DNA of 64,000 bases, taken from Methylocella sp. GTDB lineage: Bacteria > Pseudomonadota > Alphaproteobacteria > Rhizobiales > Beijerinckiaceae. A program made the translations under genes and the position numbers. Below the pieces are notes generated by a model, which was not told where the DNA came from, ran no database searches, and worked only from the letters and a program-made list of their open reading frames with translations. Of this stretch, positions 41,926 through 59,912 are shown one piece after another (the first letter of the stretch is position 1; the number at the start of each line of letters is the position of its first letter). The stretch is from NCBI GenBank assembly GCA_037200525.1, contig JBBCGG010000001.1:4766501-4830500 (forward strand). Reading direction: 5' to 3'.

Positions 41926-42374
41926 CGTTTCTCTCCCGTTAAGGCTGAAATTGATGCTCGTGCGGTTCCGTGACGTGATCGATCGGGGCAGCGCTCCAAT
42001 CTTGAGTACAACAACCCATAGCTGTCAAACGGAATGTTACACCCTGACATCACAGCCGCCATCAACGCGGAAAAAGGCCCGGCGCTGAACCGGGCCATTA
42101 GTTGAGAAGGGAACCCGAAAAAGCCCCGCGACAACCGAAGCACAAATCCGGACAGGTCATCGAAAGGAAATGCATCGAAAGCGTTCGTCGGATCCGCACG
42201 TTGCCAGGGCGTTGGCGGACTGCGGTTGCGGAGCCGCATTGTTAGTACGCATTCCGTACTCTGATGACCTCGAAAGGACGAGACAAAAACCCTGAGCCGT
42301 TCCTTTTCTCCATTTTGGTGTCGGCAATTAGCAAAGGCCACCGAAGTTCAGTCGCCTCTATGCTGGCCGTCCAT
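41926..42374. other. Intergenic region upstream of the metallothionein gene
   Basis: About 450 bases holding the metallothionein promoter. Short readings on both strands have no domain. A GATGACCTCGAAAGGACG string near 42263 recurs at 44942 inside the small-gene operon. Confidence 0.45.
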
Positions 42375-42693
42375 CTATTTCTCGCGAAGCGCCCCAGCGT
42401 CCGGATCGCCAGATGAGCCACCGCGGCCGGGTCTGTTAGGCGAAGGCAGCCCGTCTTGACCCGCGGCGTTTCCGGCGCCTCCGATCTCTTTGGAGCCGGT
42501 AGATGGGTTGGAGTCGCCCTTTTGCCCACTTTGATCCATGGTTTGCCCAGTCCGATTTGTGTCATAGCCTTGCGCCAGCGCGATCGGTGAGAAAGCAAGC
42601 ATGGCTGCAGATAGCGTCGCGATGAAATTCATGTCTTCCTCCCAGGTCGCTTGCCCTAGCCACCAACCGCCGGAAGTGTTCGATGATTTGATT
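42360..42693. repeat. About 330-bp duplicated block, copy A
   Basis: This block, containing the secreted-protein gene at 42375 with its upstream region, recurs with high identity at 45786-46118. Shared edges are TGCTGGCCGTCCATCTATT on one side and GGAAGTGTTCGATGATTTGA on the other. Both copies lie in the same orientation about 3.4 kb apart. Confidence 0.85.
42375..42632 (-). CDS. Small secreted hydrophilic protein, paralogue A
   Basis: An 85-residue protein: signal peptide MNFIATLSAAMLAFSPIALA, then a disordered Gly/Ser/Asn-rich mature part (TNRTGQTMDQSGQKGDSNPS, AGNAAGQDGLPSPNRPGRGG). The paralogue at 45800-46057 is identical through the first 32 residues. The low-complexity mature part suggests a secreted or cell-surface stress peptide. 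No known family. Confidence 0.7.
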   Translation of the reverse strand: MNFIATLSAAMLAFSPIALAQGYDTNRTGQTMDQSGQKGDSNPSTGSKEIGGAGNAAGQDGLPSPNRPGRGGSSGDPDAGALREK

Positions 42694-42807
42694 TGCGATA
42701 CGCTAAATCATGAGCATGCCCGAATGGATCGCCCTTTGGCTCACTCCCTCGTAGACGCGGAAACGGGAGCCATTCGAACGGACGAGACGAGTTTCAATCA
42801 GGTGCGC

Positions 42808-42894
42808 TCAGTACCAGCGTCCGCGGCCATACCATCCACCGCCACCAACCAGCAAAATGATCAACACGATGATAAGAAGCGTGGTCGTATCCAT
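42808..42894 (-). CDS. 28-residue membrane peptide
   Basis: The sequence GGAGGAGCAA directly precedes ATG 42894. The product is MDTTTLLIIVLIILLVGGGG followed by WYGRGRWY: one hydrophobic helix and a basic aromatic tail. It resembles the N-terminal half of DUF3309-type peptides, which are widespread in alphaproteobacteria. The excellent ribosome-binding site and natural composition support it despite its size. Confidence 0.65.
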   Translation of the reverse strand: MDTTTLLIIVLIILLVGGGGWYGRGRWY

Positions 42895-42964
42895 TTGCTC
42901 CTCCATTTGAAGACGCGAGTTGAAGACGCAATCTCGCAAACGTTATCTAGTCGCAGTACCAACA

Positions 42965-43141
42965 CTAGGCTTTCAGGTTCCTGTGAACAAAACGTCTTTG
43001 GCCGCCGCAAACTTCCGCCTCCAGCAGCACCGTTCCGCAGTCGGTGCTAATTGGATCATCAGGCGGCATCTGCGCTTTCCACGCCTGATACCCTTCGTCC
43101 ACCCGATCAGTCAGATCGGCATCAAATCTGACCCATTGCAT
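42965..43141 (-). CDS. Small hypothetical protein
   Basis: A 58-residue protein from ATG 43141 with GGAG nine bases upstream: MQWVRFDADLTDRVDEGYQA, then WKAQMPPDDPISTDCGTVLL and a basic tail. It lies 37 bases downstream of the gene at 43179 on the same strand and may be co-transcribed. No family recognised. Confidence 0.5.
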   Translation of the reverse strand: MQWVRFDADLTDRVDEGYQAWKAQMPPDDPISTDCGTVLLEAEVCGGQRRFVHRNLKA

Positions 43142-45359: not shown

Positions 45360-45884
45360 ATGAAACCGGCGGTTACAGGCCTCAGAATAACATCAACGGT
45401 CCTGTATGTGCTTTCCATCGGGGCCGCACTACGCGACCTTGAATTATCTGCGGTGCGCGGCGGTCCAAAGCCGTGGTTGGATTACTTTTGGATCGGAAGC
45501 GGCATACTGTCCCTGTTCTTGGCATTCTGCGCTGAAAAGATGGAACAGAGAATCGCTGTCAACGGCCAGGACGAACAGGCTGTTGAATCGAAAACTGCTT
45601 TATTCGCTAGATTCATAGCCCTCCCCGGCAAAAGTAGTTCGGATGCAGCCTCTCCCAATGCCACCCCCTGCGGAATAAATGCGAAGAGTCGCACGCGGCG
45701 CGACTCTAAATCAGACCCGCGCCAAGGTTGGATTCGTTCACTGCGCCGGCCGCCCAAAATGGGCACTTCAAGTTCAATCTTGAACTGCTGGCCGTCCATC
45801 TATTCGTCGCGAAGCGCCCCGGATTCCGGATCGCGAGATGAGCTACCGTGGCCGAGTCTGTTTGGCGAAGGCAGCCCGTCTTGA
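45360..45884 (+). CDS. Small membrane protein, paralogue B, with an unusual long tail
   Basis: Residues 1-60 form two hydrophobic segments (LRITSTVLYVLSIGAALRDL; FWIGSGILSLFLAFCAEKME) that match the 66-residue protein at 40935. GGGAG precedes ATG 45360. The reading then continues for another 110 residues rich in Ser, Pro and Arg and runs antisense into the secreted-protein gene at 45800. The tail is probably the result of a lost stop codon after duplication. The true functional unit is likely the first 65-95 residues. Confidence 0.5.
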   Translation: MKPAVTGLRITSTVLYVLSIGAALRDLELSAVRGGPKPWLDYFWIGSGILSLFLAFCAEKMEQRIAVNGQDEQAVESKTALFARFIALPGKSSSDAASPNATPCGINAKSRTRRDSKSDPRQGWIRSLRRPPKMGTSSSILNCWPSIYSSRSAPDSGSRDELPWPSLFGEGSPS

Positions 45885-46118
45885 CCCGCGGCGTTTCCGG
45901 CGCCTCCGGGCTCTTTGGAGCCAGTAGATGGGTGGGATTCGCCCTTTTGCCCACTTTGACCCATGGTTTGCCCAGTCCGATTTGTGTCATAGCCTTGCGC
46001 CAGCGCGATCGGTGAGAACGCAAGCATGGCTGCAGATAGCGTTGCGATGAAGTTCATGTTTTCCTCCCAGGTCGCTTGCCCTTAACCGCCAGCTGCCGGA
46101 AGTGTTCGATGATTTGAT
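45786..46118. repeat. About 330-bp duplicated block, copy B
   Basis: Second copy of the block at 42360-42693, with point differences but the same order: 3' flank, secreted-protein gene, its ribosome-binding site (GGGAGGA) and about 60 bases of upstream sequence. Confidence 0.85.
45800..46057 (-). CDS. Small secreted hydrophilic protein, paralogue B
   Basis: An 85-residue protein with the same signal peptide as paralogue A and a mature part differing at about a dozen positions (QTMGQSGQKGESHPSTGSKE, PNRLGHGSSSRDPESGAL). Conservation of the frame across many substitutions argues that both copies are translated and under selection. Function unknown. Confidence 0.7.
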   Translation of the reverse strand: MNFIATLSAAMLAFSPIALAQGYDTNRTGQTMGQSGQKGESHPSTGSKEPGGAGNAAGQDGLPSPNRLGHGSSSRDPESGALRDE

Positions 46119-46293
46119 CGAGCCGATGAGTCGCTACGGCGATTCCCAGCCGAAGCGTATCCTATCTGCCTGGAGCATTCACGATATCCATAGAGCCCAA
46201 TATCGCAGGCAATTCACGGGTCCGCACGGGGTCCGCACAAGGTCCGCAGGCTTGGATTGGGAAGAGATTAGTCGCCTAACGCATTGAAATTAT

Positions 46294-46342
46294 TGGTGCC
46301 GCAAGAGAGATTCGAACTCCAGACCCCCTCATTACGAATGAG
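46294..46342 (-). other. 3' half of a tRNA-Thr(CGU) gene: probable attachment site
   Basis: On the minus strand, 49 bases read anticodon arm (CTCATTCGTAATGAG, anticodon CGT from 46336 to 46334), variable loop, T arm with GTTCGAATC, and the acceptor strand ending in GCGGCACCA at 46294. The 5' half (acceptor 5' strand and D arm) is absent: the sequence beyond 46342 is AT-rich and unrelated. It is the typical direct-repeat scar of an element integrated into the 3' end of a tRNA gene, and an integrase gene begins 136 bases further on. Confidence 0.75.
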
Positions 46343-46477
46343 ACTGTCGCGCTTTCTTTTGGTTTCTTTTTATTTGATAGGATATCACTTCTCCCTGTAG
46401 TTACTGCGATTTGTATGCGATATTGTTTCAGATAGCCACCCACGGTTTCTTTTTTGGTGGCGACACGGTGGCGACAA

Positions 46478-47761
46478 ATGTCCAAGGACCTCACCAAGCG
46501 CACAATCGACGCGCTCCCTCCTCGCGAGAAGCCCTACATCGTCTTCGACGCAAAGCTGCCCGGCTTTGGATTACGCATCGCGCCCAGCGGCAGTAAAACT
46601 TTCGTCGTCTAGTACCGACCACACGGAGGCGGCCGAGCGATCGCCAAGAAGCGGCTCACGCTTGGAGCCTATGGCCCGCTCACGCCCGATCAGGCGCGCA
46701 AGGCTGCCGCCGACGCACTCTCCGCGGTGCGCCACGGGCGTGACCCACAGGCTGAGAAAAACGAACGCCGCACGGCGCTAACTGTCTCGGACCTGGTTGA
46801 CGCGTTCGCGACCGAACACGTCGCAACCAAATGCAAAGCGCGGACCGCGGAAGCGCACACAGCCGCCCTCGAGCGGCTGCGCAGCGCGCATGGCGGCGCT
46901 AAGGCAGAGAGCGTGACTCGGGGGCACATCGCCAAGATGCACGCGAGCTTGGCCGACAAGCCCTTCGCCGCTAACCGCTTTTTAGCCGTCGTTTCCAGGT
47001 GTTTCTCGTGGGGCGTTGACCGGCAACTATTGCCGGAAGGCCACCTCAACCCAGCGTCCCGCATCCAGCATTATGAAGGCGCGGCTCGCGAGCGGTACCT
47101 GTCCACTGCCGAGCTCGCGCGGCTTGGCGACGTCTTGCGGGAAGGCGAAACCGTCGGCCTCGAATGGTCGCCCGACGAGACAAAGGCCAGTGCGAGGCAC
47201 GCGCCGAAGCCTGAAAACCGGCGCACGCTGCTTGACCCGTTCGCTGTGGCCGCAATCCGATTGTTGATTTTGACCGGCGCTCGGATGCGCGAGATTTTGC
47301 ACGCCCGATGGAATTATGTCGACTTCGAGCGCGGTGTCCTTCGACTGCCCGACTCGAAGACCGGGGCGAAGCCGGTCTACCTCTCAGCGGCCGCGCTGGC
47401 CGTGCTCGCCGCCCTACCCCGCATCAACGGCAACCCCTTCATAATCGCGGGCGGCAAAGACGGACAAGCCCGCGTTGATCTCAAGCGGCCATGGGCCGCG
47501 GTCACTAAGGCCGCGGGGCTTGAGGGCCTGCGCATCCACGATCTTCGGCATTCGTTCGCCTCGGTCGGGGCCGGCGCTTCGCTTGGTCTGCCGATCATTG
47601 GGAAGCTGCTTGGGCACAGCCAGCCGGCCACGACCGCCCGTTATGCGCACCTCGACGCCGATCCGATGCGCCGCGCCGTCGAGTCCATCGGGGCGACGAT
47701 CAGCGCCGCGATGGGCGAGAACGCCGCCGAGAGCGCCGTCGTCAGCCTCCGCGGCAAATAA
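46478..47761 (+). pseudogene. Tyrosine integrase with internal amber codon
   Basis: A 427-codon reading from ATG 46478. The N-terminal DUF4102-type arm-binding domain (TKRTIDALPPREKPYIVFDA and LPGFGLRIAPSGSKTFVV) is cut by TAG at 46610-46612, where a Gln (CAG) would normally give VVQYRPHGGG. The frame then continues without a break through the core-binding domain to the catalytic domain: Arg in LTGARMREILHARW, HDLRHSF and LGHSQPATTARYAHLD with the nucleophile Tyr. A restart at 46727 would lack the arm-binding domain. The enzyme of a tRNA-Thr-targeting element is thus probably inactive or depends on readthrough. Confidence 0.85.
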
Positions 47762-48041
47762 AATCCCTCGATCTTTGAGCCATATCGCCTACGTAGGGCG
47801 ATTGAAACTGACATTTATCAGTAAGATAGCAGACCGCGTCAAGGACAACTGTCGCGTTATATTACTCTGCGCATGCGTATGCATCTCTGTCTATGTGTGC
47901 GTAAAGCCAGTGTATCAATCTGGTGTATAAAACTACATACACATACTATGAGCACTGTCCATTCAGTCAAATTTCTACTTGCCTGCATTCAGTATCCGTG
48001 CAATATCAAACATCGCAGCGGTTTGCACAAAGGAGATTTGG

Positions 48042-48281
48042 ATGCCCCAATATTCAGACAGGAGTCAGGCTCCGCCAGGCGGCTTGATGACAACGCCCGA
48101 AGCGGCCAGTTATCTGCGGCTGAGCAAGTCCCTAATAGACAAATACCGAGTATTCGGCGGAGGGCCGCTGTTCGCCAAGCTGGGAGGCCGGATCGTTTAC
48201 TCGAAAGAGGATCTCGACGCGTGGATCAGCGCGAGGAAATTCTCCTCCACGTCTGAGTACAGTGCCGGCGAGGCCGCATAG
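48042..48281 (+). CDS. AlpA/excisionase-type HTH protein
   Basis: A 79-residue protein from ATG 48042 with AGGAG upstream. The winged-helix motif MTTPEAASYLRLSKSLIDKY, GPLFAKLGGRIVYSKEDLDA and WISARK is the standard MerR-like AlpA/Xis domain. In integrative elements such proteins direct excision or activate the integrase. It lies between the integrase and the replication gene. Confidence 0.9.
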   Translation: MPQYSDRSQAPPGGLMTTPEAASYLRLSKSLIDKYRVFGGGPLFAKLGGRIVYSKEDLDAWISARKFSSTSEYSAGEAA

Positions 48282-48523
48282 CCCCGCGGAATCGAAACCT
48301 GAACGCGCCTAAGACCCACCAGACCTATCAGACCCACCAGACAGCAAGATTGAAAAAAGGCGCTTTCACCTCATAGAAGGTTGAAGCGAATGTTGTTTCT
48401 GAGAGCCGAGTATCCATCATCTTCCGACTGGACGCGGCATACCGAATTTATCTCCGGAATTAATCTAAGCGGCCCGCGCCATTGCCTTGGCGGCGTGAAC
48501 TTATGGTTCTCCAGGGAGTGCGC

Positions 48524-49036
48524 ATGATGGCCCCGAAGTTTAACGCGACATATGCGCGTCTGCTACTTTCACCTCAGATTGTCGAAATCGACCGGGCTTG
48601 GTTCGAGGCTCACCCGTTACGTTCCTTCCGAGTAAGGCAACTCGGCAAGGGCGAAGCCCGCGTGCACATGGTCCCTGAGTGGGCAAGACGCAACTGCTCC
48701 AAGGTAGTCATCCGCTTCGGAGAACAGGCCTTTCGTCAGACCGTGGCCATTGCGCAACCGCATAACGGCGTACCGGACAGCGATGAAACCGTATTGGCTA
48801 TTGTGTACGATGCTCTCCGGCTGGCCATGGCTAGCGATGACGAAATGAGAGCAGTGCGCGACGCTCTCGATGGCGCCCGTGCCTGTGACTGCAGCGAAGA
48901 CTCACTCGCAAAGGTCCGCTCGGCGGTGCGCGCAGTTGCGGCGGATCCAGAAAGCGACCCGATACTCCGCGAGGCACGCTCGTTCGCTATCATCCGAGCC
49001 GCGCGTGCCCAAAGCGAGAGAAGGGCGGGACGATGA
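48524..49036 (+). CDS. Hypothetical protein upstream of the primase gene
   Basis: A 170-residue protein. GGGAG at 48512 supports ATG 48524 over ATG 48503. The first half has a beta-rich region (LLLSPQIVEIDRAWFEAHPL and RQLGKGEARVHMVPEWARRN), the rest is helical with DALRLAMASDDEMRAVRDAL. A four-base overlap with the primase/helicase gene implies a joint role in element maintenance. No family recognised with confidence. Confidence 0.6.
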   Translation: MMAPKFNATYARLLLSPQIVEIDRAWFEAHPLRSFRVRQLGKGEARVHMVPEWARRNCSKVVIRFGEQAFRQTVAIAQPHNGVPDSDETVLAIVYDALRLAMASDDEMRAVRDALDGARACDCSEDSLAKVRSAVRAVAADPESDPILREARSFAIIRAARAQSERRAGR

Positions 49037-51030
49037 GTGCTCGGCTCGCCGCGAATGCGCCCTCAGCCCCAGTTTGCTCGTTCGACGACATTCGCGACGC
49101 CGCGGAAGATCTGACGCGTCGCGGGCTCAGCGTGTTCAAACTGTCCGCCGATTCGTGCCGCCCGCTCGTTCCGTCGCCGTGGGAGCGGGCTACGTCCGAT
49201 CCCTCGCGCGCTCGAGCGATGTTCACGAACGCCGCTGGCGGCCAAGAGGCGGCCAATATAGCCGTCGTGACCGGCGATCGCTTCATCGTGGTCGACGTCG
49301 ACGTGAAGGGCGACAAGCAAGGTTTGGCGTCGCTTGAGATTATGAAGGCGCGCGGCTTAGACACGGAGACGCTTACGGCGCGCTCGAAATCTGGCGGCTT
49401 TCACCTCTTTTTCGAAGTGCCGCCGGGCTATCACTACAAGAGCATTCAGGGCAATTCGGCCTATCTGCCCGGCATAGATATCAAGGGGACGCACGGTTAC
49501 GTGGTCGGCGTCGGAAGCTCGACGCCGCAAGGATCTTACACATGGGAGAAAGAGCTCCCGATCTTGCCGTGTCCCGATTTCCTGCTCAAGGAATGCCAGA
49601 AAGAGCTTTTGATCGAGCGCAAGGCTGCAACCCCCTACGTGCTTGGCGAGGCCGACACGCCCGAAATCATCGCGAAGGTGACGAACTACCTTCTCTATGT
49701 GGCCCCGGCCGGCGTCGCTGACGTCAACCATCATGATTCGCTCATAGCCGCCGCCCAAGGCGCGATGGACCGCGGCGCGACGCCGGAGCTTGCCGCTGAA
49801 CTCATAATCGAGCATTGGTCGACCCGGCCAGACTGTTCGAACGTCGACCCGGAATTGATTCGCTATCAAATCGCCGAGCACGCGCCGCGCCGCAATGACC
49901 CGATCGGGATCATATCGGCGATATCGGCCGACGATGCTTTTGAGGCGGTCACGCTGCCAAAGCCGGTTGCCAAGGCTGCGCGTGTGTTCAAGGCGTCGGA
50001 ATTCATGGCGCAACGCGTACCGACTATACCGGTTATAGAGGGGCTCATATCGGCTGGAGGCGTCTACACGCTTACAGGAAGCACGGGAGCAGGCAAGACT
50101 GGCCTCTTGCTCAATATCGCGCTGGCCGTGGCTTTCAACCATCCTGACATTATCGGGCGCGACGTTGAGGCTGGCCCCGTGCTCTACATGACCGCGGAGA
50201 ACCCGAACAAATTCCGGGAGCGGCTGATTCTCGCGGCAATCGTCTTTGGGATCTCTGAGGCGGACCTTGATAGCGGCAAGCTGCAAATCTTACCGGGTTT
50301 TGCGACCGAAACGGAAATGCTCGCTGAAGTAAAAAATATCAAAGGCGGCTTCAGCCTGGTCGTGCTCGACACGCTGGCGTCGTATTTCGCCGGCAGCGAT
50401 TTCAACGACAACGCGCAAACGCTGAACTTCCTCCGAGGCGTGCGGCCTATCACAGCCACAGCCGGGGCTCCTGCCGTGCTTATCGCGGCGCATCCGGTCA
50501 AGAACGCCGCAGCAGACAATCTTGTGCCCTATGGCGGCGGCGCCATCCTAAACGAAGTTGACGGAAACCTGACGCTCTCGGCCACAGCCGACAAGAAAGG
50601 CTCAATCCTTCATTGGCAGGGCAAGTTGCGCGAGCCGGACTTCGAGCCGATTCACTACGTTGTCGACCAGGAATCAAGAGACCAGCTCTTAGACGGAAAA
50701 GGTAGGGCGCTCGTCCTGCCAATCATGCGCTTTGCCACAGACAAAGAAGTGAAGGCCGAAGCTGCGAACGCACTCAATGCCAAGCAGCGCATTCTTGTTG
50801 CTCTGGCCGCCGGACCGCAGTTGACCGCCGCTGCCATCGCTCGTGTGGCCGGCCTACCAGGCAGGAGTACGAGCAGGTACGTCAACGAACTCCTCACTAT
50901 GAAACTCCTGGGGAATGGTCTTGCGGGAATCGAGTTAACCCCAAAGGGGGCCAAGCAACTGGCCGCGGTCCTCGCCGACCATGACGGGAATGTCTTCCAA
51001 CGAGTTGAAGGAGAGATTTTTGCGGGCTGA
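49033..51030 (+). CDS. Primase-polymerase/RepA-type helicase fusion of an integrative element
   Basis: A 665-residue replication protein. The N-terminal prim-pol domain (about 15-200) has the DxD metal site at D88-D90 (RFIVVDVDVKGD), the His motif SKSGGFHLFFEVP and DIKGTHGYVVGVGS. The central AAA_25/RepA helicase has Walker A around K355 (LTGSTGAGKTGLLLNIALAV), Walker B LVVLDTLASYFAGSDFND and the sensor AAHPVKN. A C-terminal winged helix (LTAAAIARVAGLPGRSTSRY) may bind the origin. It is followed at once by a dense palindromic repeat region that could be that origin. Confidence 0.9.
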   Translation: MSARLAANAPSAPVCSFDDIRDAAEDLTRRGLSVFKLSADSCRPLVPSPWERATSDPSRARAMFTNAAGGQEAANIAVVTGDRFIVVDVDVKGDKQGLASLEIMKARGLDTETLTARSKSGGFHLFFEVPPGYHYKSIQGNSAYLPGIDIKGTHGYVVGVGSSTPQGSYTWEKELPILPCPDFLLKECQKELLIERKAATPYVLGEADTPEIIAKVTNYLLYVAPAGVADVNHHDSLIAAAQGAMDRGATPELAAELIIEHWSTRPDCSNVDPELIRYQIAEHAPRRNDPIGIISAISADDAFEAVTLPKPVAKAARVFKASEFMAQRVPTIPVIEGLISAGGVYTLTGSTGAGKTGLLLNIALAVAFNHPDIIGRDVEAGPVLYMTAENPNKFRERLILAAIVFGISEADLDSGKLQILPGFATETEMLAEVKNIKGGFSLVVLDTLASYFAGSDFNDNAQTLNFLRGVRPITATAGAPAVLIAAHPVKNAAADNLVPYGGGAILNEVDGNLTLSATADKKGSILHWQGKLREPDFEPIHYVVDQESRDQLLDGKGRALVLPIMRFATDKEVKAEAANALNAKQRILVALAAGPQLTAAAIARVAGLPGRSTSRYVNELLTMKLLGNGLAGIELTPKGAKQLAAVLADHDGNVFQRVEGEIFAG

Positions 51031-51044
51031 AAACGGCGAAAAAC

Positions 51045-51256
51045 GCGTGGCCGAAGCTGGCCGAATTGATGGCCAATCGGCCACGTTTTTTGCAAGGAAA
51101 TGGTGGCCAGTTTTGGCCGAAGTTGGCCGACGAAAGGGGCTAACTAGTTGAAAATATTTCGTCGGCCAACTTCGGCCAATTTTTACCTAATGGCCATTCG
51201 GCCAATCGGCCACACGCCCCCCTTCTTAGAAGGGGGGCGTGGCCGAGGCTGGCCGA
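51045..51256. repeat. GGCCGA iteron array with large inverted repeats: putative replication origin
   Basis: Eleven GGCCGA or TCGGCC units occur in 212 bases. They build three hairpins: CGTGGCCGA with TCGGCCACG at about 51046-51084; a perfect 23-bp inverted repeat at 51113-51135 and 51157-51179 (TTGGCCGAAGTTGGCCGACG plus AAA); and a 13-bp palindrome at 51214-51226 and 51228-51240. The array starts 15 bases after the primase/helicase stop codon. No gene is visible in 51031-51347. Confidence 0.8.
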
Positions 51257-51347
51257 TTTTGATGGGCAGCTGGCAGAAGTGAATCCGTCGGATGCCATCG
51301 TAACTAAGGCCGCGGAATCTGGCGGCGACACAAGCAGGAATTGAAAC

Positions 51348-51692
51348 ATGATTTCACCTCGCCGGCGCCGAGCCCCCAAGCAGAAGGCAAAGAAGGCTCC
51401 AGAAAAGCACGACCTAGATCCGGACAACATTGAGGAGTTTGACGAAATCGACGCCTACGAGCAATTGGTCTCAGTGTGGTGCAAAACGCACTCTAAATAC
51501 GAGTCGCATTTCCTCCCGCTTTACCTCGTCAATCCGGGCGAACTCGATCGGCGCGCGGAGGCCTCTGCACAGCACCGCCGCCGCATGCGCATAGTGGCAG
51601 CTGTAACCGAAGCCGTTGCCGAAGCAGTAGCCCGCCGTAGCGGTCGGACACCCCCACCGCGTCGCGGCCAGCCCCCGACGCGGACACGCTGA
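51348..51692 (+). CDS. Hypothetical basic/acidic protein of the element
   Basis: A 114-residue protein after the repeat array. Basic N-terminus (SPRRRRAPKQKAKKAPEKHD), acidic middle (LDPDNIEEFDEIDAYEQLVS) and a helical Ala/Glu/Arg-rich end (VAAVTEAVAEAVARRSGRTP). A small terminase-subunit-like or DNA-binding role is possible but not supported by a motif. Confidence 0.5.
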   Translation: MISPRRRRAPKQKAKKAPEKHDLDPDNIEEFDEIDAYEQLVSVWCKTHSKYESHFLPLYLVNPGELDRRAEASAQHRRRMRIVAAVTEAVAEAVARRSGRTPPPRRGQPPTRTR

Positions 51693-51769
51693 TGAGCCAA
51701 GGGAAGCCCAATTCCCCATCGCACCTTGCTGGCAACGTTCCATCTAAGCGCGCGGCCACGGCTCGCTAA
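51692..51769 (+). CDS. Possible 25-residue peptide gene
   Basis: ATG 51692 overlaps the stop of the previous gene (TGATG). The product MSQGKPNSPSHLAGNVPSKR plus AATAR is polar and basic. Coupling is the only support, so it may be chance. Confidence 0.25.
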   Translation: MSQGKPNSPSHLAGNVPSKRAATAR

Positions 51770-51942
51770 AAGAAGGAGGGCTCCCTCATCGAACGAGTTT
51801 TCGTTAACTCGTTTAATTTCAACGACTTAATTATAGTTCAAACGCTCTGGATGCTATCCGACGCTTGGTGAGAATTGAGGGCAGCCGACGGCGCCGCCTT
51901 TGATCGACTCAATGCCCTGCGGAGCAGGACAAGCCCTTACGA

Positions 51943-52909
51943 TCAATGCGCCTCAATTTGTGTCCAGGAACCGTTTGAACCCTTCATATCCCGGTGGGTT
52001 GTGCCTTTGTCCCAATCAACGCAAGTTCGGATGTCGCCGTATGGATTGAACTCACACACATCGCGAGAAAGAAGATTTCCATCCGCGTCGTCGGCCCTTC
52101 GCACCATCATGTCCTTGCCATCATTGCTGGTGAACCAAATAGCCGTCGTGCAAATTTTCAGCTCGGGTTGACATGAGCGAACGAAGCTCGGTTTTCCGTT
52201 GTGCTGTGCGATCGACAGATCGGTCGCCCATTTCACAATGTTTTTCCCATTTTTGTTGCTCGGTTTGTGCTGGCGGTTGGACAGGAACCTGCGCCGGCGC
52301 CGCGACCTGCGCCGCATTGGCCGACGGCGTTTGAACAGGCTTTCCTGTCATCGTCGTTCCCATCGCGCGAAGGTTGTTCGGCGACAGCCAGACGATCTGA
52401 TCCGGTGGCGTAACTACCATTCGCCCGATAATTTCGGCCGGCACCCCGAGCTCTTTGACAACTTTTGCCATTGCCACGGTCGCCGCGTTCCCCTGTTCGG
52501 TCTCCCGTCCATTCTTGTCTGAGGCGCCATGCACGCCAACCGACGCGCTGTAGCTGGCAAACTTATCGGCACCGGCTGCGAACGCCACAAAGCACGCCGA
52601 CGCGCACGTTGACCCGTTCGGAACGACAGTGGCTATCTTCGCGAAGCGTATCAGCTCGGACAGCTTTACTCCCTCAAGCAAATTACCGCCGGGGGAATTG
52701 AGGCGAATGCCCGACACGATCTTCCCAGAGTCGTTGGCGCTCTTCGTCAGCTGCGTGAGTTGGTCGGCGTCCCCTGACGCGATCTCTCCGTTGAGGATAA
52801 CGATAACCTTGCCCTCTTTGGAGACGTAGCTTGTTAGCGTCGCGGCGGCGGCTGGCACCGAAACAGCGGCGAAAACGCCTGCTGCAAAACAGATTTTCAA
52901 AGGGCTCAT
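51943..52909 (-). pseudogene. Periplasmic COG3904-like (Clp-fold) protein, frameshifted
   Basis: From ATG 52909, a signal peptide (KICFAAGVFAAVSVPAAAAT) precedes a crotonase/ClpP-like domain: ILNGEIASGDADQLTQLTKS, IRLNSPGGNLLEGVKLSELI and NGSTCASACFVAFAAGADKF, with HGASDKNG. After QQKWEK near 52242 the frame shifts. The next frame supplies the expected C-terminal domain (KWATDLSIAQHNGKPSFVRS, then ELKICTTAIWF and GDIRTCVDWDKGTTHRDM) to a stop at 51943. A single indel has therefore broken a 320-residue protein. The family function is unknown; the SPGG and SACF motifs suggest a serine peptidase-like site. Confidence 0.75.
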
Positions 52910-53011
52910 GAAACAGCTCAGCGCAAATCAAGAAAATATGGCTCAATTTTGCGCTATACGAGGCGGAACCGCAAGTTCCGCGCGGCGTCGACCGCGCGGC
53001 TCAACCTTCGT

Positions 53012-53158
53012 CTATTTCTTGGCTTGTTGCTTCAGTCTTTCGATCAAAATGCGCTCGATGAACTGAGCTAGTGACCGACCGTCATTTGCTGCCAGCTTTT
53101 CGAGCGCCGTTTTGACGTCGGGCTCAACTCGTAATGAAATTGCAGCTGTGCGGGCCAT
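53012..53158 (-). CDS. Ribbon-helix-helix DNA-binding protein
   Basis: A 48-residue protein from ATG 53158 with GGAGGAC directly upstream: MARTAAISLRVEPDVKTALE, KLAANDGRSLAQFIERILIE and RLKQQAKK. The beta strand (AISLRVEP) and two helices are those of Arc/MetJ/CopG regulators. Such proteins act as antitoxins or plasmid-copy regulators. It diverges from the gene at 53272, with an inverted repeat between them. Confidence 0.8.
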   Translation of the reverse strand: MARTAAISLRVEPDVKTALEKLAANDGRSLAQFIERILIERLKQQAKK

Positions 53159-53231
53159 GTGTCCTCCTTAAAAATGTATGCAAATATGTGCAAATGAATC
53201 ACATTTTCATTGACAGGTTTGCGACTGACTG

Positions 53232-53247
53232 TAGTGTGCATACACTA
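53232..53247. promoter_or_regulatory. Candidate RHH operator
   Basis: TAGTGT (53232-53237) and ACACTA (53242-53247) form a perfect 6-bp inverted repeat with spacer GCAT, between the RHH gene and the divergent 168-residue gene. The repeated ATGTGCAAAT/ATGCAAAT words at 53173-53196 lie beside it. Confidence 0.55.
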
Positions 53248-53271
53248 TCACACAATTGCAGGAGAATAAAA

Positions 53272-53778
53272 ATGGCTCAAGATATCGCAATGTCGCTCGC
53301 CGTCGAGTGTCGCCTTATCGACAAGTACATGTTCATGTGCAGCCACCGGATCTCGGAGAGCGAATACGATAAGATCGATCGGCGGCGGATGGATGTCGAA
53401 GCGCAGCTTGCCGCCACAACGCCGTGGACAAACGCAGGCGCATCGGCGCTGCTTCGCACTGCGGCACGATGGTTACTCGCCGCTGAGCCTCAGGAATGGG
53501 CAATAGCCCATCTGCGCACGCACGCCCGGCGCCTCGGGCGCGGCGAACGCGGAGTGATTGTTAAGCTTCGGAGTCTATTCGTCACGCTCGGTGAAGAGCC
53601 GACGTGCGATGAATGCGCCCACGGGGGTGGATGGTCGCCGGAAAATAAAGCAGCTATCCTTGCGATACTAGCCAACGTGATCGAGTATGCCGAGTCATAT
53701 AAAGCCGCGCCAGAGGCTTGGGCACAGCGGAAGCTACTCTGGCAGGATATCCTCGCCACGGCGTCGCCGAGAAACTAG
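53272..53778 (+). CDS. Hypothetical protein divergent from the RHH gene
   Basis: A 168-residue helical protein. GGAG at 53261 supports ATG 53272 over longer readings. Segments include VECRLIDKYMFMCSHRISES, ASALLRTAARWLLAAEPQEW and KAAILAILANVIEYAESYKA, with Cys pair CDEC in EEPTCDECAHGGGWSPE. It is probably controlled by the RHH protein. No family recognised; a toxin function is not indicated by any motif. Confidence 0.6.
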   Translation: MAQDIAMSLAVECRLIDKYMFMCSHRISESEYDKIDRRRMDVEAQLAATTPWTNAGASALLRTAARWLLAAEPQEWAIAHLRTHARRLGRGERGVIVKLRSLFVTLGEEPTCDECAHGGGWSPENKAAILAILANVIEYAESYKAAPEAWAQRKLLWQDILATASPRN

Positions 53779-53868
53779 CGCGGCTTTCCTCTTGTGTTGT
53801 CGCCCTTGCGCCACGGCGACAACACGGTCCTTCGCTCGAGGCGCCAGCGCGAATGAGGGCATAATCCG

Positions 53869-54452
53869 ATGAGCGAGAACACGGTCGATGACGACAGCGA
53901 TCCGGCGTATTGGCTGGCCGACGCGATAGTCAAGGAGCGGGCCCTCAATCGGCTCATGGCGGCGCGCAGAGCGGATGATGTCAAATTCGCCAAAACCGCG
54001 CACCGATGGGCCCTGCGCGTTGTGGGTGGCTGTGCCGCTCTTGATCCTGTGGCTGCTTTGGGATTACCGGCACGACTGGCGAACCATTGTCGTCTATTTT
54101 TTGATCTATGGCATGGCCGGCGCGGGCTATGAATTTGAAAATGATCATGGGAAGCGCCGCAGACTAATCACAGCAGAGGAAAACGCGCGGCTCTCGGAAG
54201 ACGAACAGCGAGTTATCGCCAGTCTTAAGGCCGACATCCCGAAAGTCATCGCGGCATCGTCCCCCGAATCTGTCGCCCATTTGCGAGCGATTGCCGCGGA
54301 AATCTGTCGCCCATTTGCGAGCGATTGCCGCGGACCCCAAAGTGGACCTCACATCGGGTTTCGCGTCCAAGGAAGCCAAGGCCCGAAGCGATGCAATCAT
54401 CGCAGCGAGAGCGCGGCAAGCAGCATCCGGCGGGCGCGGTGGGCCGTCGTAA
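53869..54452 (+). pseudogene. Membrane protein gene broken by an indel and a 34-bp tandem duplication
   Basis: The gene begins at 53869 (SENTVDDDSDPAYWLADAIV). Near 54015 the frame shifts into ALWVAVPLLILWLLWDYRHD and VVYFLIYGMAGAGYEF (two hydrophobic segments), then a helical tail. At 54301 an exact 34-bp duplication shifts the frame again. Removing it restores SVAHLRAIAADPKVDLTSGF, continuing to a stop at 54450-54452. The original protein was about 180 residues with one or two membrane helices. Its role is unknown. Confidence 0.7.
54267..54334 (+). repeat. Perfect 34-bp tandem duplication
   Basis: Copy 1 at 54267-54300 and copy 2 at 54301-54334 are identical (AATCTGTCGCCCATTTGCGA and 14 further bases). 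Identity indicates a very recent event or an assembly artefact. It lies inside the broken membrane-protein gene. Confidence 0.92.
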
Positions 54453-56926: not shown

Positions 56927-58916
56927 TTACCTCCCCGCCAATAAAACCCCCACCGAGCTGCCCGGCGCCGATGCGCGGAACTGCTGGGCCGGCTGCGCTG
57001 GCGCTTCTCGCTTCGTGCCGAGCAGCGCCGCAATGGCGCTCCCGGCCGTCGGAGGGTTGAACCCGTGCTGCAGCCATTGGTTGCCGAGATATGCCTGAAT
57101 CGGACGGGACATGATAAGGCGTCCGATCCCCGCCGGCACTGCTGCCCCGAGCGCGGAGCCAACCGCCGCGCCAACCGGTCCAGCACCTAAAAACCCCGCC
57201 GTTCCGCCGCCGGCGCCCAAACCGCCGGAAAGAAGATGCATTGCATAAGCGCGGCCAGCCGTACCCGAATCGGGCAGCGGCTTTAGCGCGGCTTCTCCAG
57301 AGCGAGCGAGATCAGCAAAATCGCCGATGCCTTGAGCGTAATCTAGCCGGTTATTCCCCCTCGCAACGACGCTCTTGATCTGCGTCGGGGAGACGTAGCC
57401 TTGCGCGCCGCGCGCCCCGCCGCCGACGGCTGCATTCGCAATGTCTTTCAAGTTCCCCCATTGGCGTCGCGCATCCTGCCACGCCTGCGCGTCGTCGGGC
57501 GAGATCGAGCGCGTAGCAGCATCGTCAAGCGCATCGCGAATGCCGCGATAAGCGGTCGAAAGGTTGCGGGTCGGACATGCGAACGCTATCCGCCATATTG
57601 CCGGCGCGCGAGCGCGTGGCTTGGTACACGTCGCCAGGCAGCGCGCCGTTGCGGTCCGGTTCAGCAAATCGTCAATGATATTGCCGACGTCCGGTGCGCG
57701 TTGGCTCGGCGCAGTCGTGCGCTCATAATTGCCAAGCGTCGTCTGAAAATCGTTCGCGAGCTGCGGATCGGCGGCCACAGTGTTCCGCGCCGAAAGGTCG
57801 TCGAACACGCTACCGAGATCCCTGAACCCGCGGTTAAGAACGTCGTCGGTCGCCAGCGGCGCGTTGATGCCAGCGCGCCGCAGAAGCGCTCCGGTAAATG
57901 CGCGCCCCGTCCTGTCATTGGTTGGGCCCGAGCCGCCTCCGCCAGGAACTTGGGTTGCGGCTGACTCGATCCGCTGCAAATTCTCACTTCCGGTGCGCTG
58001 TCCTGCCGTCATCGGGATATTCTCGGCGTCGAGTACGGCGATCGCCGGATCAAGCGCGGCGGGGCGCGCAAATGGCGTTACAACCTTGCTGACCGCGCTA
58101 GCGGCCAGCGGCAATGCGCCGCCGAAAATCTCGCCCATGCCGGCGCCACGGCTGGCGTCGGACAGCACTTGCGGCAAGTTCGTGTAATCCGGCGAGCTTA
58201 CGGCGCCCCTGAACACCGCCAAGCGTTCCGCCGACGCCCGCCCCAATTGCCGCTTTGCCGAGAGCGCCGGCGCCTTGCGCGGCGGCCTCGATCGGGCCAA
58301 GCGGGAGCGCCAGGCCGGTTGCAGTCGCTCCAGCGGCGTTTGCGGCCGAAGCAACAAGCGGATGCTCTTTCTCGAAAGCCGCGCTCTTCGCGCGCTCGGC
58401 CTCAAGGTTGCCAGAATAATCGCCAAAGTTGCCGCCAACGCCGGTTAGCGCGCTAAAGCCAGCGGCGATGCGCGGCGATAGCCCGAGCGACGCGCCTTGA
58501 TTGGCTTCGCGCAGCACATTCGCCGCGCCGCCGAGATCCGCGCCGAGATCGCGCACGGGGCCGTCCGACGCCTCTTCCGGCGAGCGCAATTGCGTGTCGT
58601 CGACAAGCGGGGCCTGCTGCGGAACGATCGAAGAGAAAGATGCATAGGGATCGGCGGCAGCTGGCTTCCCAACGATCGAGGAAAATGATGCGTAAGGGTC
58701 CACGGCCGGAGCCGCAGGCTGCGAAGGAGAGCCTTGAGGTGCCGAAGGCTGCGGGGCTGGCGCACCAAGCGTTGATGGCGTCGCCGAGGAAGGCGCAAAC
58801 GCAGATGGCGTGACGCCGCTCGGATCCGAAGCCGCCAGCAGCGCGAGGGGCGACATTCCAGGCGCATAATATCGCCGCGCAATAGAGCCGTCGGGGGTTT
58901 GGGCATCGATCGGCAT
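56927..58916 (-). pseudogene. Phage virion/DNA-ejection-like protein, multiply frameshifted
   Basis: From ATG 58916 the protein has an Ala/Pro/Ser-rich start with an internal repeat (DPYASFSSIV occurs twice). It continues with NVLREANQGASLGLSPRIAA and Gly/Ala-rich helical stretches. At about 58200 the frame shifts into LPQVLSDASRGAGMGEIFGG. A compensating pair of shifts between about 57580 and 57660 garbles some 25 residues before LSTAYRGIRDALDDAATRSI. The end is a Gly-rich membrane-like segment (AGFLGAGPVGAAVGSALGAA) before YLGNQWLQHGF. The architecture suits a podovirus-type internal virion protein. Function is inferred from composition only. Confidence 0.6.
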
Positions 58917-59072: not shown

Positions 59073-59912
59073 CTAGGCTCAGGACCTATTAAATTTGCCT
59101 GAGATGTGATTCCTGGTCTCCGCATGGGGAGGCTGGGATGAGTGATTTGTTTTTGTTGGGCGAGCGGCAGATGGCGCGGCTTGCGCCGCATTTTCCTCTG
59201 TCGCATGGCGTTCCGCGGGTTGACGACCGTCGGGTGGTCAGCGGAATCGTCTATGTGATCCGCAACGGCCTGCAATGGAAAGATACGCCCAAGGATTACG
59301 GGCCGCACAAGACGCTTTACAATCGCTTCATCCGCTGGAGCCGGCTCGGCGTCTTCGACCGCATATTCGCCGCGCTCGCTGGCGAAGGTCCAAAGCCCGA
59401 GCGCATCATGATCGACGCCACGCATCTGAAGGCGCATCGCACAGCGGCGAGCCTGCTCAAAAAGGGGCTCTTCCCCGCCGTATCGGGCGCACGAAAGGCG
59501 GGCTGAACTCGAAGCTCCACGCCGTCTGCGACGAAGCCGGAAAACCGATCATCCTGCTGCTTAACGAAGGCCAGATGAGCGACCATAGGGGCGCGCGGCT
59601 TCTGGCCGATACGCTGCGCCTGCCTCGGCGCTGATCGCCGACAGGGGCTACGACAGCAACTGGTTCCGCGCCGCGCTGAAGGCCAGGGGCGTCGAGCCCT
59701 GCATCCCGCCAACCAGAGGCCGCAAAGCGCCGCTCCACTATGACAGGACGCTTTATCGAACGCGCCACAGAATCGAGAACCTCTTCGTCAAGCTCAAGGA
59801 CTGGCGGCGCATCGCAACCCGCTATGATCGATGCGCCCATACCTTCTTCTCCGCCATCTGCATCGCCGCCGCCGTCCTCTCTTCTATCTCAATCAATGAG
59901 TCCTGAGCCTAG
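59073..59912 (+). mobile_element. IS5-family insertion sequence, copy 2 (mosaic)
   Basis: The same ends as the copy at 8338-9176: CTAGGCTCAGGAC at 59073-59085 and, inverted, at 59900-59912, with CTAG at both extremes. The first 440 bases and the region 59640-59715 are almost identical to copy 1. Short middle blocks (about 59521-59635 and 59718-59790) are clearly divergent, so the copy looks recombinant. Confidence 0.88.
59138..59900 (+). pseudogene. IS5-family transposase, copy 2, disrupted second frame
   Basis: Frame A (59138-59506) is intact with first Asp IMIDATHLKAH. Frame B reads LNSKLHAVCDEAGKPIILLL but stops at 59634 after a one-base deletion (LADTLRLPRR). The remaining catalytic part (LIADRGYDSNWF, RTLYRTRHRIENLFVKLKDW) continues in another frame, and two extra bases near 59880 change the end (copy 1: CCTCTTCTATC; copy 2: CCTCTCTTCTATC). 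It should be inactive but could be moved by the enzyme from copy 1, as the ends match. Confidence 0.8.

Follow-up and report, generated by a model that had tools for sequence, protein, structure and literature searches.

A dense array of short repeats lies directly 3' of a gene for a fused primase-helicase in a stretch of 64,000 nucleotides from Methylocella sp. (GenBank assembly GCA_037200525.1, contig JBBCGG010000001.1, positions 4,766,501 to 4,830,500; hereafter the window, whose numbering is used throughout), and this array is very probably a replication origin, to judge from comparison with related loci. It occupies 209 bases (51048-51256) between the stop codon of the primase-helicase gene (51030), the putative initiator gene, and the next likely gene (51348), and it consists of 11 exact copies of TGGCCGA or its complement, TCGGCCA.

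The Array and Its Putative Initiator Gene

The repeats, or iterons, form four pairs with a period of 10 bp, one pair with a period of 8 bp, and one single copy, and opposed pairs flank both an AT-rich stretch (51140-51160) and a C-rich hairpin (51213-51241). A first-pass annotation, made from the letters alone, had reported such an array, which is real, and had described within it a perfect 23-bp arm pair with a 21-base spacer, which we find at 51113-51135/51157-51179. It was also right that the array adjoins the gene, the first 7-mer beginning 17 bases past the stop codon rather than the 15 given; similarly, the stem of its 13-bp palindrome exists, with a loop of three bases, TTA, instead of one. 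Two additional inverted pairs are present at 51198-51226/51228-51256 (76%) and 51040-51054/51077-51091 (87%).

Over both strands of the window, TGGCCGA occurs 38 times exactly, against 14.35 expected from shuffles, and 11 of these 38 copies are inside the array. The 400 bp 3' of the gene hold 11 copies, the highest number among 100 dinucleotide shuffles being 4. The single-strand fold of the array has a z of -10.8, which was equalled in none of 200 shuffles, and an Rfam scan of 46000-54000 gave no match. When the paired motif, TGGCCGANGNTGGCCGA, was sought in the 5.24 Mb genome with at most one mismatch, six matches were obtained: all four perfect ones are in the array, and two with one mismatch are elsewhere.

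In the product of the initiator gene, Pfam recognizes Prim-Pol (PF09250, 1.6e-26) and AAA_25 (9.3e-21), with winged-helix matches at the C-terminal end that fall below the cut-off. A profile of 14 family members, compared with solved structures, placed RepA of RSF1010 (1g8y) first (1.3e-10). An AlphaFold2 model based on 32 sequences (mean predicted local distance difference test score, pLDDT, 78.8) shows a winged helix spanning roughly residues 583-649 (block pLDDT 85-92), in which residues 610-622 form the recognition helix. In a fold search with this model, the helicase matched RSF1010 RepA at rank 6 (1.3e-10, TMt 0.74), Rad51-type folds coming first with similar E-values.

Arrays Downstream of Related Genes

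Two overlapping sets of loci were compared. The first, obtained by protein searches of genomes and viral contigs (one viral locus), contained 30 loci including that of the window, 28 of which have downstream sequence; matches were present in 5 of 297 genomes (E 1e-20), 1 of 385 (E 1e-25), and 21 of 397 (E 1e-25), with Methylocella's own genome counted each time. In this set, 7-mer repeats exceeded those of all 100 shuffles downstream of the gene in 18/28 loci and upstream in 0/29. Among the seven matches that start from the primase part, L032, L035, and L036 pass this test and L009, L011, L029, and L034 do not. The second set, obtained by a profile search, comprised 99 loci, 19 of them from genomes and the other 80 the best of 148 viral ones; 96 were testable. 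Of the 19 genome loci (L041-L059), 11 are first-set places, and 9 of those are among the 96. Here, none of 50 shuffles reached the observed count downstream in 64/96 loci and upstream in 1/93. The sole upstream array to pass, in L109, has 11 copies of CCGTGCC in the 400 bases that precede the rep frame (0/50 shuffles).

At least six copies of a 7-mer follow 61 of the 96 relatives, compared with 15 of 969 other open reading frames of the same loci. When word lengths of 5-9 are allowed, 76/96 relatives pass, compared with 9/200 control stretches. The first-pass annotation had suggested that homologues be searched for repeats at the same place; with 20/96 not passing, absence is not the rule.

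Some viral loci are near-duplicates, and merging of those that share their first 120 downstream bases left 108 loci, of which 74 have arrays by the criterion that no shuffle of 50 reaches the count and that there are at least five copies. These 74 arrays use 44 words, which fall into 35 groups. Within 300 bases 3' of the stop codon, the first iteron begins a median of 16.5 bases after it, and the array spans a median of 188 bases. The named genome loci are alphaproteobacterial in 17 of 19 cases, the other two being from Piscinibacter. In further searches, the window protein, used alone as query, found no relative in a scan of genome contigs; its matches in 17 plasmid records are confined to residues 8-261, the primase part; and none of 74 phage records reached 80% coverage. 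A plasmid search with the helicase part of L053 yielded no record.

Eight annotated records of more distant relatives, seven from phages and one from a plasmid, were also compared. Rhizobium phage 16-3 (L147, NC_011103.1) has 14 copies of CGTGACA/TGTCACG 3' of p101 (0/200 shuffles), and phage RHph_X2_25 has 16 copies of the same word 3' of its primase gene (0/200 shuffles); in both phages, a C-rich hairpin with TTTAG, read from the printed sequence, stands ahead of the last iteron. The NC_011103.1 record annotates no feature at the phage 16-3 array. Roseobacter phage CRP-406 has five copies of GGCTGGA (2/200 shuffles). The test is failed by Caulobacter phage RW, MW202475, Gordonia phage Sour, Corynebacterium phage phi674 (9/200), and the one plasmid, from Roseomonas. 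Among the relatives, terminase, portal, and head genes lie near L065, and a terminase gene lies near both L076 and L054; hence, the replication module is also used by phages or phage-like elements. An integrase is upstream in three of the four loci scanned for it (L042, L054, and L060) and was not found in L053. Separately, a D5_N/DUF5906 gene lies 3' of the array in L060 (L060:11728-13065), an element that may have a second replication module.

Recognition Helix and Iteron Word

The iteron word is, in all likelihood, read by the recognition helix of the C-terminal winged helix, as covariation within the family suggests. Removal of near-duplicates and of rows with a gap in the helix left 61 of the 74 loci. 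Similarity between words correlates with identity over a nine-residue helix stretch (r 0.40) and, to a lesser degree, with identity over the rest of the winged helix (0.25) and the helicase (0.25). The partial correlation of helix with word, after the other two, is 0.33 (0/1000 permutations), while those for the rest of the winged helix and for the helicase, after the others, are 0.03 (269/1000) and 0.10 (77/1000).

The helix stretch was picked after the list had been seen, and all nine-residue segments of the protein were then scanned. Across 63 loci, with overall identity removed, the nine highest-ranking of the 340 segments all lie over the helix. For pairs less than 50% identical in the helicase (1594 of 1953), helix segments are again at the top, this time of 339 (0.36; standard deviation of all segments 0.10), and the stretch originally chosen gives an r of 0.34 (0/1000 permutations). 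In these distant pairs, words that match at six of seven positions increase from 5/562 at the lowest helix identity to 9/17 at the highest.

Individual loci illustrate this relationship. Those with CGTTCCA have a helix of the form K-S/G-x-x-x-R, and the four with CGTTCAG fall into two clades that are 41-43% identical; in each clade the last place, R in the CGTTCCA loci, is A or G. Over the helicase, L072 (CGTTCAG) shares 81-83% identity with L080, L087, and L096; the helix of these three differs, and their arrays use GATACGA or CGATACA. In four loci, an HKDRARR helix is paired with CGCACGA.

The Hairpin and the AT-Rich Stretch

Hairpins that do not consist of iterons (stem of at least 6, loop of 3-6) were sought within the arrays, with only the non-iteron bases shuffled for the background. 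Such a hairpin is present in 54/74 arrays, compared with 8.6 expected, and one with a YTYA loop in 31, compared with 0.4. In a separate count, 38 of the 49 hairpins flanked by iterons on both sides lie between inverted copies. An earlier and stricter test, based on inward pairing from iteron pairs, gave a stem score of at least 5 in 9/73 arrays against a background of 0.5% and has been superseded. A G-first hairpin whose loop is TTTA is common to L007, L010, L030, and L039, and the first two additionally have a C-first hairpin with a CTAG loop.

Other words are also enriched outside the iterons, including TCTTAGA (6 loci vs. 0.2), CATTGAA (8 vs. 0.9), and AAAACAG (18 vs. 1.8), as are, across the 74 arrays, TTGAAA (18 vs. 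6.0 expected) and ATTGAAA (10 vs. 1.5). The AT maximum is most often in the middle of the array (21 of 69 arrays in one tenth of its length).

The Host Element

The array belongs to an element of about 19.1 kb that extends beyond the window, since a partial and an intact copy of tRNA-Thr(CGT) mark its ends. The 50 bases of the partial copy differ by a single mismatch from the 3' part of the intact gene at contig positions 4831896-4831971, which is 1.4 kb past the end of the window; three weaker matches to this repeat exist elsewhere in the genome. A search for attachment (att) repeats within the window alone had found merely two 13-mers, and it was the tRNA search that located the site. From the left end, the element is ordered int, AlpA-like gene, an unknown gene, rep (the initiator), and array (Table 1), which, together with the att repeats, is the order of phage-inducible chromosomal islands (PICIs). 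This gene order is not general among the relatives at the sensitivity used, as tblastn found an int homologue in 7/99 loci and AlpA in 3/99.

Table 1. Features of the left part of the element and of the array, in window coordinates.
Feature	Positions	Strand	Remarks
Left attachment site, 3' part of tRNA-Thr(CGT)	46293..46342	-	Repeat of the intact gene
Tyrosine integrase frame, interrupted by an in-frame TAG (46610-46612)	46478..47761	+	Phage_integrase 1e-16 over 46727-47758
AlpA-like regulator (HTH_17)	47979..48281	+	HTH_17 3.3e-09
Initiator, 665 aa: Prim-Pol primase/polymerase, RepA-like (AAA_25) helicase, C-terminal winged helix	49033..51030	+	
Codons of the recognition-helix stretch, residues 608-616, tracking the iteron word across the family	50854..50880	+	Overlaps predicted helix 610-622
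Iteron pair 1, TGGCCGA-N3-TGGCCGA, 10-bp period	51048..51064	+	
Single inverted iteron	51077..51083	-	
Iteron pair 2, 10-bp period	51114..51130	+	Within left arm of the perfect 23-bp inverted repeat
AT-rich stretch with TTGAAAATATTT, 16/21 bases A/T, between opposed pairs 2 and 3; candidate melting site	51140..51160	.	
Iteron pair 3, 10-bp period, inverted relative to pair 2	51162..51178	-	
Iteron pair 4, 8-bp period, inverted	51198..51212	-	
C-rich hairpin, 13-bp stem, TTA loop, between inverted iterons	51213..51241	+	
Iteron pair 5, 10-bp period	51240..51256	+	

PHROGs was consulted for 10 window proteins and returned, apart from the initiator, only DNA-ejection-like, transposase-like, and unknown-function matches. 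Inside the element, 56927-58435 (-) encodes a protein like a phage DNA ejection protein (phrog_26400, 1.1e-27), and 59138-59503 is a transposase-like fragment (phrog_33747). Just to the left of the element, similar reading frames at about 42240-43050 and 45700-46080 suggest a duplicated segment. We know of no helper phage for this element.

Comparison with Known Systems

In PICIs and Staphylococcus aureus pathogenicity islands (SaPIs), two sets of iterons and an AT-rich region lie directly 3' of the primase-replication gene, and the Gram-negative PICIs have the order int-alpA-pri-ori (PMC6092414; PMC10111431); moreover, a PICI pri-ori segment sustains a plasmid in E. coli (PMC6092414). The window and 76/96 of the relatives share with these islands an iteron array directly 3' of the initiator gene, and the window also shares the order int-alpA-rep-ori with att repeats. 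The differences are that the initiator here combines a Prim-Pol domain with an RSF1010-RepA-like helicase and a winged helix, that there is a hairpin inside the array, that the named genome loci are mostly alphaproteobacterial, and that phages have the arrangement too.

A similar arrangement has been proposed for the staphylococcal cassette chromosome mec (SCCmec), where the C-terminal domain of Cch2 binds a putative origin at iterons downstream of its operon and where the primase CCPol-MP favours starts at that downstream site (PMC7581432). Both systems have an initiator helicase with a C-terminal domain and iterons just downstream, whereas in SCCmec the helicase and primase are separate proteins and there are three short iterons. 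The first-pass annotation had spoken of a new type of origin; this is only partly right because the general layout was already known, iteron origins directly 3' of such a gene having been described in PICIs/SaPIs and suggested for SCCmec.

Other systems resemble parts of this one. The pRN1 protein unites Prim-Pol, helicase, and winged helix, and an essential stem-loop lies 3' of its gene (PMC4234260), as a stem-loop does in the window, but its helicase is of the SF3 type rather than AAA_25/RepA-like, its stem-loop is 100 nt long, and it has no iterons. At RSF1010 oriV, the RepA helicase acts with iterons and with the hairpins ssiA and ssiB as priming sites (PMC4234260); RepA is homologous to the helicase here and is its best solved relative by sequence, though RSF1010 uses three proteins, the helicase, the primase RepB', and the iteron binder RepC, where a single fused protein is found here. 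In the phage P4 alpha protein, unwinding and priming are combined and a winged helix binds origin repeats (PMC4234260), an organization like that of the single protein here except that the alpha primase is of the Toprim type. The PrimPol-PV1 supergroup and PrimQH, with primase, RepA- or DnaB-type ATPase, and a winged helix proposed to find the origin (PMC5862659), share this combination of domains, the primase of our initiator being placed only by Pfam Prim-Pol PF09250; the word 'iteron' is absent from the main text of that paper. Phages with Prim-Pol and AAA_25 are described in PMC11288001, in which neither 'origin of replication' nor 'repeat' appears, and actinomycete elements with Prim-Pol in PMC3218068, from which 'iteron' is likewise absent. 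A description of this array family was not found in the literature searched, a search outside which most subscription journals lie.

Proposed Mechanism and Alternatives

Comparison among the relatives establishes, at the level of sequence, the place and density of the array, the differences in its words, the link between helix and word, and the conservation of a hairpin, and it supports what the first-pass annotation had seen in iterons next to an initiator that is encoded in cis and has a winged helix at its C-terminal end, namely an origin. The whole is best explained, and we consider this highly likely on such evidence, as the iteron origin of a PICI/SaPI-like element of about 19.1 kb, opened by the primase-helicase encoded in cis. 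As to how it would work, we infer that the integrative element excises and then replicates from the array. The initiator would bind the 11 iterons via the recognition helix of its winged helix; protomers on the opposed iteron sets would build RepA-like helicase rings at the AT-rich stretch, where the DNA would open; and the fused Prim-Pol domain would lay primers, which a host polymerase would extend. The C-rich hairpin is probably a signal for the initiator. Its leading candidate role, that of a priming or loading site, is suggested by analogy with the RSF1010 ssi hairpins and is put forward tentatively; the hairpin-primed start envisaged in the first-pass annotation is likewise a hypothesis.

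Several observations weigh against this interpretation. A significant array is absent after 20/96 testable relatives, and five of the eight more distant annotated records fail the array test. No hairpin was detected in 20/74 arrays; in the others, the C-rich arm is the first in 28 and the second in 26. The uncorrected correlation with the word is 0.25 for each of the two regions outside the helix, and permutation does not correct completely for shared ancestry. In the arrays, the AT content of the richest 25-mer averages 0.71, compared with 0.70 in shuffles, so the argument for a melting region is one of position and motif. Finally, the in-frame TAG breaks the integrase frame, so the copy of the element studied here may be unable to excise by itself.

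A different explanation would be transcription control, with the iterons as operators for self-repression or for the gene at 51348 and the hairpin as a terminator. Winged-helix proteins are often repressors, and there are three terminator-like sites on the plus strand at the array; however, 1.3 are expected, all three are built from iterons, and the strong hairpin, which has no T run after it, is not among them. Moreover, the array is 3' of the gene, with upstream arrays nearly absent (0/29 and 1/93), no sigma-70-like promoter was found in 50900-51600, and eleven sites exceed the needs of an operator, so that this explanation is unlikely. A little less probable still is a partition or copy-number site that is bound by the initiator while the origin is elsewhere. 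Plasmid iterons do also govern copy number, but initiation is what a fused helicase and primase beside the sites indicate. In PICIs, arrays in this position are origins (PMC6092414).

The strong hairpins at the site could also be taken to indicate a rolling-circle origin with a hairpin as the nick site, which is how one group has read the pRN1 stem-loop (PMC4234260). Neither Pfam nor PHROGs found a rolling-circle nuclease domain in the initiator, and such an origin is very improbable. As for a dispersed palindromic repeat unrelated to the gene, a possibility that the first-pass annotation had itself raised, GC-rich palindromes are common in bacterial genomes, yet the array is not such a repeat because it contains all four perfect paired motifs of the genome. 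Many relatives, in addition, carry another word at the same place, and the chance that the array is of this kind is negligible.

Implications

Returning to the iteron origin opened by its own primase-helicase, it is conceivable, at slightly less than an even chance, that the phages and islands concerned constitute a widespread and unnamed class of replicons. In this class, a single primase-helicase initiator would have a fast-changing DNA-reading helix and iteron words private to each lineage, so that the origins served by helicases as close as about 80% identity may be foreign to one another, and a hairpin whose loop is YTYA (often TTAG), and whose structure persists while its sequence changes, would give the primase a defined start. 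A single array leads to a family-wide prediction of where the origin would lie in many phages and islands with this initiator and of which residues would read it. The matched pairs of helix and word would offer a natural series for the study of how replication specificity evolves, and the role of the hairpin in priming by a primase of the archaeo-eukaryotic type is directly testable, for which Rhizobium phage 16-3 could serve as a model.
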